Source of the DNA: an uncultured Clostridia bacterium
GTDB lineage: Bacteria > Bacillota > Clostridia > Christensenellales > Borkfalkiaceae
Direction: 5' to 3'
Length of the DNA: 64,000 nt
Assembly: GCA_904419075.1 (NCBI GenBank)
Contig: CAJFQM010000001.1
Span: 1-64,000, forward strand
A program made the translations under genes and the position numbers. Below are positions 2,158 to 23,871 of the stretch, one piece after another (within the stretch, counting starts at the first letter, position 1; each line of letters starts with the position of its first letter). The notes below the pieces were generated by a model. It did not search any database. It had not been told where the DNA came from and saw nothing but the letters and a program-made list of their open reading frames with translations.

Positions 2158-3065
2158 AAAAGAAAAGATTTTTTGAGATTTTAAGGTCTCCAAACGGTAC
2201 TTTTCTGGTCATCGTCTATCTGCTGACCATTGCGACGGTCGTCACTTCTTTGATTTGCGTGGCGACGGATTTTTCGCCTCCCGCGGTCTATGTCGTGTAT
2301 GCGGCCGCCGCAATTACTCTGTCTTATTCCGTCTATACGTTCGTGCGCATAGGGAAAAAGATGAAGAAAAAAATTTCGAGCGTCGCGGACAGATATTCGT
2401 TTACAAAAAAATTTATACACGATTACGGGTTCCGTTCCTTCGTCTTTGCGTCCGTTTCTTTTATCGTAAATGCCGGATATGCGGTATTCGAAGCCGTAAT
2501 GGGCATCGTTTTTCGTTCCGTTTGGTACGGGGCGCTCTCCGGATACCATTTTGCTCTGGGGGCGCTTCGTTTCGGGGTTTTGCGCGGGGAGCGGAAGGCG
2601 GAAGAAAACGACGAGAAGAAAAAGCTGGGGATTTATCGCGCCTGCGGGTTCGCTTTGGTCGGATTGTCCGTCGCCATGATTCCGGCTGTCACTCAAATGG
2701 TTCTTTCCGAAAAAAACACAGAGGTCTCTTCGGGAATCATGATTTATGCGACGGCCGCGTATACGTTCTATCGCGTGATCTTGGCCGTGAGCAATATATT
2801 CAAGGCAAAACGATTCAACGATCCCGCGGTGCAGGCGCTCAGAAATATCGGTTTTGTGGATGCAATGACCTCCTTGGTTCCGTTGCAGGTGGCTCTGATC
2901 GGAACTTTTTCTGAGGGGGAAGGCATGCCGTTCATGAATGCGTTGACGGGCGGTCTGGCGTGTTTGATGACGGTGGGGATAGGCATCGGAATGGCGGTCG
3001 CCGCAAATGCAAGAATTCGTCGCTTAAAAGAGGAAAAACAGAATGCAGGAAGAAAATCGGAATAA
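2154..3065 (+). CDS. Polytopic membrane protein of the two-component operon
   Basis: A 303-residue integral membrane protein with about seven hydrophobic helices and a charged cytoplasmic loop near 150-160 (KAEENDEKKK). I recognise no characterised family. It overlaps the kinase by ATGA and the next small gene by 23 bases, so it is part of the regulatory operon. A role as accessory sensor or as a protein handling the stress sensed by the kinase is inference from position only. Confidence 0.8.
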   Translation: MKKKRFFEILRSPNGTFLVIVYLLTIATVVTSLICVATDFSPPAVYVVYAAAAITLSYSVYTFVRIGKKMKKKISSVADRYSFTKKFIHDYGFRSFVFASVSFIVNAGYAVFEAVMGIVFRSVWYGALSGYHFALGALRFGVLRGERKAEENDEKKKLGIYRACGFALVGLSVAMIPAVTQMVLSEKNTEVSSGIMIYATAAYTFYRVILAVSNIFKAKRFNDPAVQALRNIGFVDAMTSLVPLQVALIGTFSEGEGMPFMNALTGGLACLMTVGIGIGMAVAANARIRRLKEEKQNAGRKSE

Positions 3066-3456
3066 ATTTAATTATACTTACTCGGCTCCGACAGAGAGCG
3101 AAAGAAAAGAAATTGAAGAGATCCGCAGAGAATATCTGCCCGAATCCGAAAACGGCGAAAAAACTCAACGTCTGAAAGCCCTGGATTCTTTTGTCAGGAA
3201 TACGGCGAAGGCGGCCGCGCTCGCTTTCGGAGTTTTCGGCATACTCGTTTTCGGGTTGGGGCTGAGTATGGTGCTCTCCTGGAATATAATGGTCTGGGGC
3301 AGCGTTGTCTGCATGGCGGGCGCGAGTTTTTCGGTCGCCGCTTATCCTGTCTACCGAATTGTTTTGCGCAAAAACAAGAAAAAGTACGGGCCGGAAATTC
3401 AGAGATTGAGCCGCGAACTCCTGAATGAGCAAACCGATACGGAAAATTCCGATTAA
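3043..3456 (+). CDS. Small membrane protein, paralogue of the product at 3563-3910
   Basis: A 137-residue protein with a charged N-terminal half (about 1-50), two membrane helices (about 56-78 and 84-104) and a basic tail with KKYG and LSRELLNE. The same layout and tail (KKYGANI..LSDELLGN) recur in the 115-residue product at 3563. Homologues are often labelled dihydropteridine reductase in databases, but no nucleotide-binding or catalytic motif is visible, so I do not transfer that name. Function unknown. Confidence 0.75.
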   Translation: MQEENRNKFNYTYSAPTESERKEIEEIRREYLPESENGEKTQRLKALDSFVRNTAKAAALAFGVFGILVFGLGLSMVLSWNIMVWGSVVCMAGASFSVAAYPVYRIVLRKNKKKYGPEIQRLSRELLNEQTDTENSD

Positions 3457-20983: not shown

Positions 20984-22114
20984 TTAATCATCGTCGTCTT
21001 CGTCGTCAAAACGGTCATGATCGGAAGATTCTCCGTTTTCGAAAACATAATGATATTCGCCTTGCCGGATATAAATTCGGAAACGAACGTCTTCGCCGTC
21101 AATATTTCCTCGGACAAAAAGGATCCGTTCTCCGTCTTCCGTCTCGTCGTTGAAAATGAGTTCTTCTTTTTTTCCGTCTTTGGAAACCGTCATTTTCAGT
21201 TCGAGTTCGTCGTCTTCTGTTTCATATTTGATTTCCGTCTTTTCAATCAGTTTGTTTTTTGAATAGACGGAGTAGACATATTCTTTTTCCGTTTCCGATT
21301 CTCCGTCGTCTTCCTCCGTTTCGGTCTCTTGTTCCACTTCAATATAGGAATTTTTCTCCGTATCCGTAAACGCTTTAAAATACAGTGCGTTTTCCGTTTC
21401 GTCTTCGGAAAATTCCGTTTCATAGCTCCCTTCGACGGGATAGACCGTATCTTCTATGACGAGTATACCTGAAAGGGAATAACTTTCTTCCGTCTCGTCG
21501 TCTTCTGTTTCGCCTTTGAGAAAAATTTTGTCATAGTACATGACATAAGAGACGCTGTCACCCAAAAGGTCGGTATAGGAAACAGTCATTCCGTAGGTAT
21601 AACCCATTTCTCCCGCAATGTCTTCTCCCGTTATGGCTCCGTCGCTCAAAAGACTTTCCACCAAAGCCATATATTTATTGATTGTATCGATTTGTTCGGA
21701 AGAATTCTTCCGAACGACAGCGGACATCGCCCGTACTCTTTGGATTGCGGGAGCAGCGGATTTTTCAGAGGACAAGATTGTTCCTATGGAAGCGGCGCCG
21801 TAAGCATAAAAGGAATCCGCGTCGGTAATATCTGCAAATTTGTTTTCGTTCGGATTGGGAAAGAAAGGGTTTTTCGATTTATGCAGAAAAACAGGGAGAA
21901 AAATACAAAGAGCCAAAAGGACTGCAAAAACCGACGCGCAGAGCGCAATGAGTTTATTGCGATTTTCTTTAACCGTTTTTTCGCCGCCGTGCGCATAGGA
22001 CAGAGATACTTCTTTTTCCTCGTAGCCGAGTTGCCGTTTAATATTGTCTTTTATATGCTTATCGGGAAGAATTTCCGCAGAATGTTCCGATAATAATTTT
22101 TTTATCTTTTTCAT
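20984..22114 (-). CDS. Membrane anti-sigma factor with large acidic sensor domain
   Basis: A 376-residue protein overlapping the sigma gene by ATGA. Residues 1-52 are cytoplasmic and would bind the sigma factor. One helix (about 54-77, LIALCASVFAVLLALCIFLP) crosses the membrane, and about 290 residues lie outside, strongly acidic and ending DDEDDDD. The outer domain carries YMALVESLLSDG and a Tyr-rich VSYVMYYDKI stretch that recur almost unchanged in the divergent lipoprotein at 22852. No zinc-binding anti-sigma motif is visible. Role is inferred from operon and topology. Confidence 0.8.
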   Translation of the reverse strand: MKKIKKLLSEHSAEILPDKHIKDNIKRQLGYEEKEVSLSYAHGGEKTVKENRNKLIALCASVFAVLLALCIFLPVFLHKSKNPFFPNPNENKFADITDADSFYAYGAASIGTILSSEKSAAPAIQRVRAMSAVVRKNSSEQIDTINKYMALVESLLSDGAITGEDIAGEMGYTYGMTVSYTDLLGDSVSYVMYYDKIFLKGETEDDETEESYSLSGILVIEDTVYPVEGSYETEFSEDETENALYFKAFTDTEKNSYIEVEQETETEEDDGESETEKEYVYSVYSKNKLIEKTEIKYETEDDELELKMTVSKDGKKEELIFNDETEDGERILFVRGNIDGEDVRFRIYIRQGEYHYVFENGESSDHDRFDDEDDDD

Positions 22115-22641
22115 AAATCTGCCTCCTCCTTGATAAGATGAGCTTTTAGCTTTTTCAGGGCCTCATTGTTTTTCCAGGTAACCGTTCCGACAGGAATATC
22201 AAGCATCTCGGAAACTTCCCGTCGTTTATATCCCGAGACTTGACATAGCATAAGAATTTTATATTCGTCTTCGGACAGAATTTTTGCCGCAACGTCGAAA
22301 ATATAAGGAAGTTCTGTTTCATGGTGGCCGTATTTGTAGGAATCGGTTTCAAAATCCGTGGGAATTTCCCGCCGATATTTTTTTAGATGATTGAGTGCGA
22401 GCGATTTTCCGATTCTGCATATCCAAGCAGAGAAATTCGTCCCCGGCTGATATTGATTCAACGCGGAGATTGCCCGAATGAATGTATCCTGTAAAATGTC
22501 CTCTGCATACATCTTGTCGCGGACGATATAGAGAATCGCAAAATAAACGGAACGGTTCGTGCGTTCGTAAATATAATCGAAAGCGCGTTTATTCCCACCC
22601 TTTAATTCGGCAATTTTCTTTTCGAGTTTGTCGCGGTTCAT
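22111..22641 (-). CDS. ECF-subfamily RNA polymerase sigma factor
   Basis: A 176-residue sigma-70 protein with region 2 (about 20-90; DILQDTFIRAISALNQY, FSAWICRIGKSLALNHLKK) and region 4 (about 118-170; GYKRREVSEMLDIPVGTV). No region 3 or 1.1 is present, as in extracytoplasmic-function sigma factors. The anti-sigma gene is translationally coupled behind it. Likely targets include its own locus. A sigma-A-type promoter lies upstream. Confidence 0.93.
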   Translation of the reverse strand: MNRDKLEKKIAELKGGNKRAFDYIYERTNRSVYFAILYIVRDKMYAEDILQDTFIRAISALNQYQPGTNFSAWICRIGKSLALNHLKKYRREIPTDFETDSYKYGHHETELPYIFDVAAKILSEDEYKILMLCQVSGYKRREVSEMLDIPVGTVTWKNNEALKKLKAHLIKEEADL

Positions 22642-22708
22642 AATTTCTCCCTAATAATAACAATCGAAAAAGGAAAATTGTTGGTAAAAAGAACAAATTC
22701 TATACAAT

Positions 22709-22737
22709 ATAATATCAGGAACGAAAAAAATAGTCAA
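22709..22737 (-). promoter_or_regulatory. Promoter of the sigma/anti-sigma operon
   Basis: On the minus strand TTGACT (22737-22732), 17 bases and TATTAT (22714-22709). On the plus strand no clear sigma-A promoter precedes the lipoprotein. A CCAACA at 22770-22775 with TTGTTATAT about 17 bases later could be an ECF-type promoter (speculative). Confidence 0.65.
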
Positions 22738-22851
22738 GATAAGAGACAAAAAATTTTTTTCTGAAAATTCCAACAAAATGCAAAAGAAGAATTGTTATAT
22801 AGGTGTGAAAGGGAAAAAAGAGTCCCAAAAAATTCTTTGAGGAGATGTAAA

Positions 22852-23871
22852 ATGAAAAAATTTTTGGCAATTTTTGCAATGACTTCTGTATTGGCACTCG
22901 GCTTTGCCTCTTGTTCGGACGGCGGGAGAAAAACGGGAGACGTCAATAACAAATTTGACGAACTGACGACTACGGAAGCTGTGTACGGATTCAGCGCGGC
23001 TTCGGCCGGTATGTTGATTTCGTCGATGAACAATCAGGGAAGCGCAAAACGGCTTGCGTCGGAAAAGGGAATCGATTTCGTAACGGAAGAAACAACTTCT
23101 TTGAATGCCGAAATCCCGTTTTCTTCGGAGGCAAAAAGAAAAAAAAGCGGCTTTTCGGGAAACGTAACAGAACCGGAAAATTCTTCCGGCGGTATTGCGG
23201 AATCGGACGCGGATTTATCCGAATTTGACGAATATATGGCGCTGGTCGAGAGCCTTTTAAGCGACGGAGGTTTCAAAATACAGTCACAGACATCGGACAG
23301 ACCCGAATTTGAAGAAAAAATGGTTGTCGGATATAACGATATGGTAGGAAATTCCCTGCAATATATCATGTACTATAACCAAATTCTTACCGATATAGAA
23401 GACGACGACGGCGAAAAGGAAGAGAAATACCGGATAGAAGGGGTAATGAATATTGACGGCACAGACTATGAAATTTTTGGCCAAAAGGAAGATGAGTCGG
23501 ACGGAGGAGAATCGGAGAGCGAGACGGAATTCAGAGTCATACTCGGAGAAAATAAATATATGTCGGTAGAGCAGAGTTTCGAAACGGAAGACGGGGAAAC
23601 GGAACAGGAATATAGCTATTCCGTTATCGAAAACAAAAAAGTTTTGGAGCGCAGTTCTTTTGAGTATGAGGAAGAACGGGGAGAGCTGGAACTCAAAATG
23701 GTTTCATACAAAAACGGAAAGACCCAAGTCGTCTATTTTGAAAAAGAGAAGGTGAAAGGGGAAGAGGTCATTTACCTGCGCGTGGGACAGGGGGCCGATA
23801 CGCGGCGATATATCGCGCGCGTGAAAACAGACGCAAACGGGAATTCTTATTACGAGTATGAACTCGTTTGA
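22852..23871 (+). CDS. Lipoprotein paralogous to the anti-sigma sensor domain
   Basis: A 339-residue lipoprotein with lipobox FASC (Cys at about 21). From about 40 on it matches the extracytoplasmic part of the divergent anti-sigma factor in order: YGFSAASAGMLISS, YMALVESLLSDG, a Tyr-rich SLQYIMYYNQI stretch, then Glu/Asp-rich beta segments including RGELELKMVS. It lacks the cytoplasmic and membrane parts. I infer a ligand-capturing decoy, co-sensor or regulon member. The start follows GAGGAGATGT; the longer frame upstream lacks a site. Confidence 0.85.
   Translation: MKKFLAIFAMTSVLALGFASCSDGGRKTGDVNNKFDELTTTEAVYGFSAASAGMLISSMNNQGSAKRLASEKGIDFVTEETTSLNAEIPFSSEAKRKKSGFSGNVTEPENSSGGIAESDADLSEFDEYMALVESLLSDGGFKIQSQTSDRPEFEEKMVVGYNDMVGNSLQYIMYYNQILTDIEDDDGEKEEKYRIEGVMNIDGTDYEIFGQKEDESDGGESESETEFRVILGENKYMSVEQSFETEDGETEQEYSYSVIENKKVLERSSFEYEEERGELELKMVSYKNGKTQVVYFEKEKVKGEEVIYLRVGQGADTRRYIARVKTDANGNSYYEYELV

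Follow-up and report, generated by a model that had tools for sequence, protein, structure and literature searches.

In Bacillus subtilis, the anti-sigma factor RsiV of the sigma-V system is a receptor for lysozyme and inhibits it in vitro, and its authors propose an autoregulatory loop in which more of the binding domain is made until the ligand is titrated (PMC5014341). In Clostridium thermocellum, the anti-sigma factor RsgI6 carries a GH10 module that is 57% identical to Xyn10D, and sigma-I6 activated the Xyn10D promoter in a B. subtilis host (PMC4711584). The lipoprotein CseA of Streptomyces is encoded with the extracytoplasmic function (ECF) sigma factor of the sigma-E/CseBC system, and its loss raises the activity of the sigE promoter (PMC6767563), and in IutY (ECF243) sigma and anti-sigma factor are fused in one protein (PMC8999054). 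The locus considered here lies in the window, a stretch of 64,000 nucleotides (positions 1 to 64,000 of contig CAJFQM010000001.1, assembly GCA_904419075.1) from an uncultured Clostridia bacterium of the Borkfalkiaceae, and consists of an ECF sigma factor gene, a membrane anti-sigma factor gene overlapping it by 4 bp, and a lipoprotein gene, divergent from both, whose product carries the same domain as the anti-sigma ectodomain (Table 1).

Like the circuit proposed here, RsiV is a single-pass anti-sigma factor, and its ectodomain is described as both receptor and inhibitor of the ligand; RsiV, however, joins both roles in one protein, and its operon also makes OatA, whereas in the window the second copy of the domain is a separate lipoprotein and the ectodomain is not of the DUF4163 plus DUF3298 type (Pfam found neither of these RsiV domains in the window anti-sigma factor or its family). 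As described for RsgI6 and sigma-I6, the window anti-sigma factor has a sensor module related by homology to a probable regulon product, but SigI has a sigma-I-C domain, not sigma-4, and its targets are cellulosome enzymes; the window sigma factor matches sigma-70 region 4, and its anti-sigma factor lacks RsgI_M in Pfam, unlike distant relatives of the locus, which have it. CseA resembles the window lipoprotein in being encoded with an ECF sigma factor but, compared by description, belongs to a two-component system with no anti-sigma factor and is not presented in the cited sections as a copy of a sensor domain, whereas no two-component system occurs among the two flanking genes scanned in the window. 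Some relatives fuse sigma and anti-sigma factor as IutY is reported to do (PMC8999054); in the window, by contrast, the proteins are separate and the two scanned flanking genes (a PfkB kinase and a GFO/IDH/MocA oxidoreductase) are of carbohydrate type rather than for iron uptake. The sequence-only reading of the window had known of no described sigma system with a lipid-anchored sensor copy; no such copy was found among the literature matches listed, subscription papers and preprints being outside their scope, but RsgI6/Xyn10D and RsiV, as presented in the cited sections, come close in principle. The locus would combine the titration idea of RsiV with the regulon-homologous sensor of RsgI6.

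Homology between the anti-sigma ectodomain and the mature lipoprotein extends along their whole folded length. The two window proteins match in blastp at an E value of 7e-18 (low-complexity filter and composition correction), and a profile-profile comparison of 60 lipoproteins with 54 anti-sigma factors gave a probability of 100 and an E value of 3e-75 over 283 columns. In local alignment the window pair scored 365, where the best of 500 shuffles reached 104; masking of all D and E left a score of 188, where the best of 500 shuffles reached 51. Acidic low complexity is thereby ruled out as the source of the similarity. By the profile comparison and the masking, the shared domain is more firmly established than when it was first claimed from the sequence, and the alignment and structure prediction proposed with that claim place the similarity across the folded domain, beyond its low-complexity acidic stretches. 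Net charge is strongly negative in both proteins (median -48 in 56 anti-sigma factors and -42.5 in 62 lipoproteins), and helix 1 has a common motif of Tyr, an aromatic, a small residue and A-A-S-x-G. The stretch YMALVESLLSDG is identical at 12/12 positions in the window pair; an exact 12/12 match occurs in one of the 51 loci where both motifs were found by pattern (median 8/12). This exactness is peculiar to the genome of the window, and the motif itself recurs family-wide.

AlphaFold2 predicts one architecture for both proteins. A helical segment next to the membrane is followed by a flexible linker of low confidence, then by a second helix carrying YMALVESLLSDG, and finally by an antiparallel beta-meander (strand numbers in Table 1), most of which has a predicted local distance difference test (pLDDT) score above 90. 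The residues that alternate along the strands fall into an acidic set and a more hydrophobic one (mean acid fraction 0.35 vs 0.07-0.11), a comparison of alternate residues that assigns neither set to the outward-facing side. The lipidated cysteine precedes the conserved Tyr of helix 1 by a median of 21 residues (quartiles 20-22.25, 62 loci), and the end of the transmembrane helix precedes it by a median of 24.5 (quartiles 23-26, 50 of 56 anti-sigma factors), so that both copies of the domain would stand at a similar height above the membrane. The lipoprotein linker between helices 1 and 2 (residues 63-117) is low-confidence and variable, with a stalk-like Pro/Thr/Glu repeat in several relatives. 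At an E value of 0.01, any single Pfam family reaches at most 2 of the 54 anti-sigma factors and at most 1 of the 60 lipoproteins; profile searches of the PDB with the domain gave no convincing match (best E 0.055), and NCBIfam yielded nothing for it. The fold search with both models returned no match of any kind at E <= 0.001, including for a comparison with the LolA-like fold of RseB/MucB; the top matches were up-and-down barrels without significance, and a function drawn from them was set aside for that reason. The shared domain is a new domain, without a confident Pfam or PDB match.

The three genes are conserved as a triplet. In a first collection of 63 loci (the window and 62 fetched, with start codons chosen by script across loci), sigma, anti-sigma and lipoprotein genes occur together in 56, of which 34 are divergent and 22 tandem; the other seven are L037, L042, L072, L079, L080, L087 and L094, and L042, L072, L080 and L094 lie near contig ends. 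In a second collection of named assemblies, overlapping the first, the triplet is present in 60 of 68 loci. Homologous loci therefore keep the lipoprotein gene beside the sigma gene, which was the outcome sought when the sequence-only reading proposed this comparison. No relative was found by a GTDB scan with a single sequence, and a scan with an alignment succeeded; the relatives, which include Candidatus Borkfalkia, Coproplasma, Gallimonas and Scatosoma, come from metagenome assemblies.

A common predicted promoter precedes both transcription units. The motif CCAACAA-N15/16-TGTTATATAGGTG stands in 53/55 sigma and 60/61 lipoprotein upstream regions (AACA and GTT were fixed in the search pattern; CC, the following A and the -10 flank were not), and in full it reads TTTTTCCAACAA-N15/16-TGTT, with a trailing ATATAGGTG that is strongest ahead of the lipoprotein gene. 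The AAC of an autoregulated promoter is present in the predicted -35, and the -10 is TGTT, not CGT, the usual ECF form (PMC8103513). The upstream regions without a site (L050_S, L053_S and L082_L) all have doubtful starts, and for L053_S and L082_L the genome-wide search lists a site near the expected place. The site is kept ahead of the lipoproteins of L037, L079 and L087, which have no sigma gene in the fetched stretch. Given the same promoter, also at these three loci, the lipoprotein very probably belongs to the sigma regulon, one of the roles suggested for it at first; competition for the ligand and feedback on the sigma factor, suggested alongside, are plausible. A transcription-factor dyad was considered, as AACAA...TTGTT looks palindromic, and was rejected in favour of a promoter because spacer length is variable by one base and only one side shows conservation of the downstream TATAGGTG. 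The AACAA of the window sigma promoter is 41 bp upstream of the ATG, giving a predicted transcript that is nearly leaderless, and many relatives are alike; two motif copies about 80-90 bp apart precede the lipoprotein gene in L070 and L071 (G062:C86 and G094:C116).

When 53 genomes chosen from the locus carriers were scanned for CCAACAW-N14-17-TGTTNTA, 89 matches were obtained, of which the locus accounts for 72 and other places for 17, and the reversed control gave 14; 51 genomes had a match, and none was found in G066 or G087. In the genome of the window, CCAACA-N15-18-GTTATA matches once, at the lipoprotein promoter, and the GTTNTA version adds one site on contig C18; within the window, CCAACA..GTTWT matches only the two locus promoters. 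The loose pattern CAACA..GTTWT has 38 matches in this genome, 36 of them off-locus, with 22 for the reversed control, which is some excess; 28 of the 36 were scored, at 11.1 bits or less, compared with 34.9 and 35.8 bits for the locus sites, which themselves helped to train the scoring matrix. Matrix scores of the sigma upstream regions, where the scan ended before reaching the ATG, are left out of account. Since off-locus matches of the strict pattern are about as rare as in the reversed control, the readable regulon is predicted from the motif to be the locus itself. A larger regulon is not supported, the strict patterns in the genome of the window being restricted to the locus and the one C18 site.

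Beyond these collections, the lipoprotein profile matches 84 of 396 genomes and 36 of 142 genera in a sample of the order, with no more than five candidates scored per genome, both here and in the scan of the own family. Sixty wider loci (L286-L345) were chosen for having matches, and their proportions are not a survey; the ECF sigma gene adjoins the lipoprotein gene in 50 of them, and in 10 no sigma gene was seen in the fetched stretch (L303 and L308 are near contig ends). Of the 50 sigma-bearing loci, 14 have the shared domain as anti-sigma ectodomain (L314 is a further, weak case), no fewer than 29 have an RsgI-like one (27 recognised by pattern, L300 and L320 by Pfam), and six are unassigned (L288, L291, L297, L298, L302 and L305). 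RsgI_M exceeds the Pfam cut-off in 9 of 10 distant anti-sigma factors scanned and in L343; it is absent from L304, the tenth, which carries the shared domain, and from L302. In 10 wider loci, the sigma factor and the RsgI-like anti-sigma factor are fused in one open reading frame of 499-529 amino acids (Table 1); Pfam confirms two of the ten, and an open reading frame of 537 amino acids in L291 is perhaps an eleventh, judging by its length and transmembrane helix. To judge from these sequences, the constant part across the order is the sigma-lipoprotein pair, and two types of anti-sigma ectodomain, the RsgI-like one and the shared domain, occur with it. Two successive lipoprotein copies occur near a sigma gene and an RsgI-like anti-sigma gene in L334, L335 and L336. 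The neighbouring genes scanned revealed no function for the lipoprotein or the locus.

The sequence-only reading had the lipoprotein copying the sensor, and this direction is probably wrong. In a tree of 117 window-type domains (L042 and L072, at contig ends, being left out), the domains separate into an old lipoprotein group and an old sensor group, with two label changes, the sensors of L090, L093, L095 and L096 falling among lipoproteins and the lipoproteins of L069, L073, L078 and L081 among sensors. Three further trees were built from hand-picked subsets with midpoint roots. In the first, which adds distant lipoproteins, all window-type domains, sensors as well as lipoproteins, fall into a single clade (97/88) that lies among lipoproteins, and a distant lipoprotein group (100/97) takes in the sensor of L304; in the second, of 99 rows, the lipoprotein/anti-sigma label needs 8 changes (8-8 in bootstraps), and the sensors of L304, L326, L327, L328 and L344 nest among distant lipoproteins. 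In the third, of sigma factors, 8 changes of ectodomain type are required (bootstrap range 7-9), and strong branches force no fewer than 4 of them, with L302 and L305 labelled RsgI although the pattern missed both and Pfam found no RsgI_M in L302. Because the lipoprotein family is wider, occurring with RsgI-like sensors and without a nearby sigma gene, and because several sensors nest among lipoproteins, the sensor is probably the copy. Most likely, on the evidence of these trees, the domain was first on the lipoprotein and was then acquired by the anti-sigma factor on more than one occasion; for the window-type clade this direction is likely, the main ground being that the lipoprotein is more widely spread. 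Changes of ectodomain may run both ways, since L343 combines a window-type sigma factor with an RsgI-like anti-sigma factor. In L344, the lipoprotein (306-1334) and the anti-sigma factor (2246-3394) are identical at 874/878 bp over a stretch that starts directly behind the anchor and ends with the stop codon. This identity may reflect a fresh copy, conversion or an assembly artefact. Distances among sensors and among lipoproteins covary beyond sigma distance (partial r 0.40, 0/2000 permutations as high) in 44 loci, twelve others having been left out as odd in the tree or for doubtful starts or gaps.

We tentatively favour, at a little under even chances, a self-contained ECF circuit that would work as a receptor-plus-sink homeostat for one ligand or partner. 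The sigma factor is predicted from the conserved promoters to transcribe its own operon and the lipoprotein gene. When the anti-sigma ectodomain meets the ligand or partner, the anti-sigma factor would be inactivated, probably by regulated proteolysis, and the sigma factor released, leading to many lipid-anchored copies of the shared domain; these would take up the ligand or partner that the sensor meets, and with the threat relieved the signal would cease, with receptor and sink split into two membrane-held copies. As a guess, the acidity of both domains would suit a cationic ligand, whether peptide, protein or metal. This homeostat is backed by the homology of the whole ectodomain, the same architecture, similar spacing and charge, the conserved triplet, the common promoter and the covariation, and the repeated re-matching of sensor and lipoprotein (8 label changes and the near-identical pair of L344) counts for it as well, as does the precedent of RsiV. 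The wider proposal, that effector-mimic sensing is recurrent and that an ECF sigma factor with essentially one lipoprotein as its regulon repeatedly re-equips its anti-sigma factor with the lipoprotein's own domain, is held with more reserve, as a possibility short of even.

Several observations weigh against the homeostat. Many relatives pair the same lipoprotein with an RsgI-like anti-sigma ectodomain, so that the lipoprotein can function without a matching sensor. The locus is patchy, being matched in 3 of 57 genomes of its own genus and in 141 of 398 of its own family, possibly an undercount. The regulon is motif-based, and the 36 against 22 loose matches in the genome of the window leave room for weaker targets. 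The 99-row tree leaves unsettled the branching order of window-type sensors and lipoproteins against distant lipoproteins, an assembly artefact might account for the 99.5% identity in L344, and recombination of neighbouring paralogues, with relatedness, could partly explain the covariation and the re-matching.

Of the alternatives, the one that fares best, though unlikely, is direct product feedback without a sink, in which the lipoprotein would pair laterally with the anti-sigma ectodomain through the membrane-proximal helices and shield it from cleavage, so that a build-up of lipoprotein would turn the sigma factor off. The shared helix motif at a similar height above the membrane, the covariation of sensor and lipoprotein, and the reported effect of losing CseA in Streptomyces (PMC6767563) are consistent with such pairing, but conservation covers the whole beta domain, beyond the needs of a docking helix, and at many loci the lipoprotein is accompanied by an anti-sigma ectodomain of RsgI-like type. 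Quite unlikely is an envelope job of the lipoprotein's own, which the anti-sigma copy would monitor, for example by competing for a shared partner, so that scarcity of the lipoprotein raises the signal. The ten wider loci with the lipoprotein and no sigma gene in the fetched stretch fit this account, and regulon-derived sensors are known from the GH10 module of RsgI6 and Xyn10D (PMC4711584); however, no partner genes are conserved beside the lipoprotein, and the neighbours (among them Tyr-tRNA synthetase, S9, rubrerythrin and FeoB, an MFS protein and an ABC transporter) differ across 8 of the 10 sigma-less loci, those with some neighbours scanned. Gene conversion by occasional recombination of neighbouring paralogues, without functional matching, is very unlikely to account for the likeness by itself: close pairs adjoin each other, many in tandem, and L344 is a near-perfect copy, but exchange with the non-homologous RsgI-like ectodomain is not simple gene conversion, and the sensors and lipoproteins of the main clade split long ago and have since remained separate, though conserved.

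In the window, the positions first given for the three genes were borne out on re-reading (Table 1). The sigma factor matches TIGR02937 at 73.5 bits (cut-off 42.9) and Sigma70_r2 at 52.2 bits (cut-off 24), and Sigma70_r4_2 at 25.5 bits falls just below its cut-off of 25.7; no Pfam domain reaches its cut-off in the anti-sigma factor. By sequence features, the pair fits an ECF sigma factor with a cognate, predicted co-transcribed membrane anti-sigma factor, and the two genes are conserved together across loci. The lipoprotein has a signal peptide, the lipobox LGFASC and the Cys at +1.

Table 1. Features of the window locus (positions in the window) and fused relatives of the wider family (positions in the fetched locus).
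Feature	Position	Strand	Remarks
Anti-sigma factor gene	20984..22114	-	376 aa; N-terminus cytoplasmic, one transmembrane helix, then ectodomain
Anti-sigma transmembrane helix, aa 52-77	21884..21961	-	predicted helix and hydropathy
Anti-sigma ectodomain, membrane-proximal helices, aa 92-130 and 136-156 (FYAYGAAS.G, YMALVESLLSDG)	21647..21841	-	
Anti-sigma antiparallel beta-meander, aa 162-366, 15 predicted strands, acidic on one face	21017..21631	-	block mean pLDDT mostly >=90
ECF sigma factor, 176 aa, sigma-70 regions 2 and 4	22111..22641	-	TIGR02937
Predicted sigma/anti-sigma operon promoter, CCAACAA-N14-TTGTTAT	22657..22684	-	motif, family-wide
Predicted lipoprotein-gene promoter, CCAACAA-N15-TTGTTATA	22770..22799	+	motif, family-wide
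Lipoprotein carrying the shared domain, 339 aa, ATG at 22852	22852..23871	+	
Lipobox cysteine codon (Cys21; lipobox LGFASC)	22912..22914	+	invariant Cys in 60 aligned lipoproteins
Lipoprotein membrane-proximal helices, aa 34-60 (YGFSAASAGM)	22951..23031	+	predicted structure
Lipoprotein second helix, aa 123-137 (YMALVESLLSDG)	23218..23262	+	predicted structure
Lipoprotein antiparallel beta-meander, aa 141-338, 14 predicted strands, acidic on one face	23272..23865	+	block mean pLDDT 91-97, 81 at 161-170
Fused sigma/RsgI-like anti-sigma loci	L286:3167-4744; L287, L289, L290, L292-L295, L301, L324		downstream of and adjoining the lipoprotein gene

If effector-mimic sensing is the correct reading, the sensor would read exactly what the effector does, and a minimal homeostat of sigma factor, receptor and sink, built on a new beta domain, would be found across an order of uncultured gut Clostridia. 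To our knowledge, how anti-sigma factors acquire new sensors is poorly understood, and with one sigma-lipoprotein core, two unrelated kinds of ectodomain, several switches between them and one near-identical copy, the gain of a sensor becomes testable by comparison. Since the relatives are known from metagenome assemblies, culture can tell little of their surface stress biology, and the circuit is small enough to be transferred whole into a model host.

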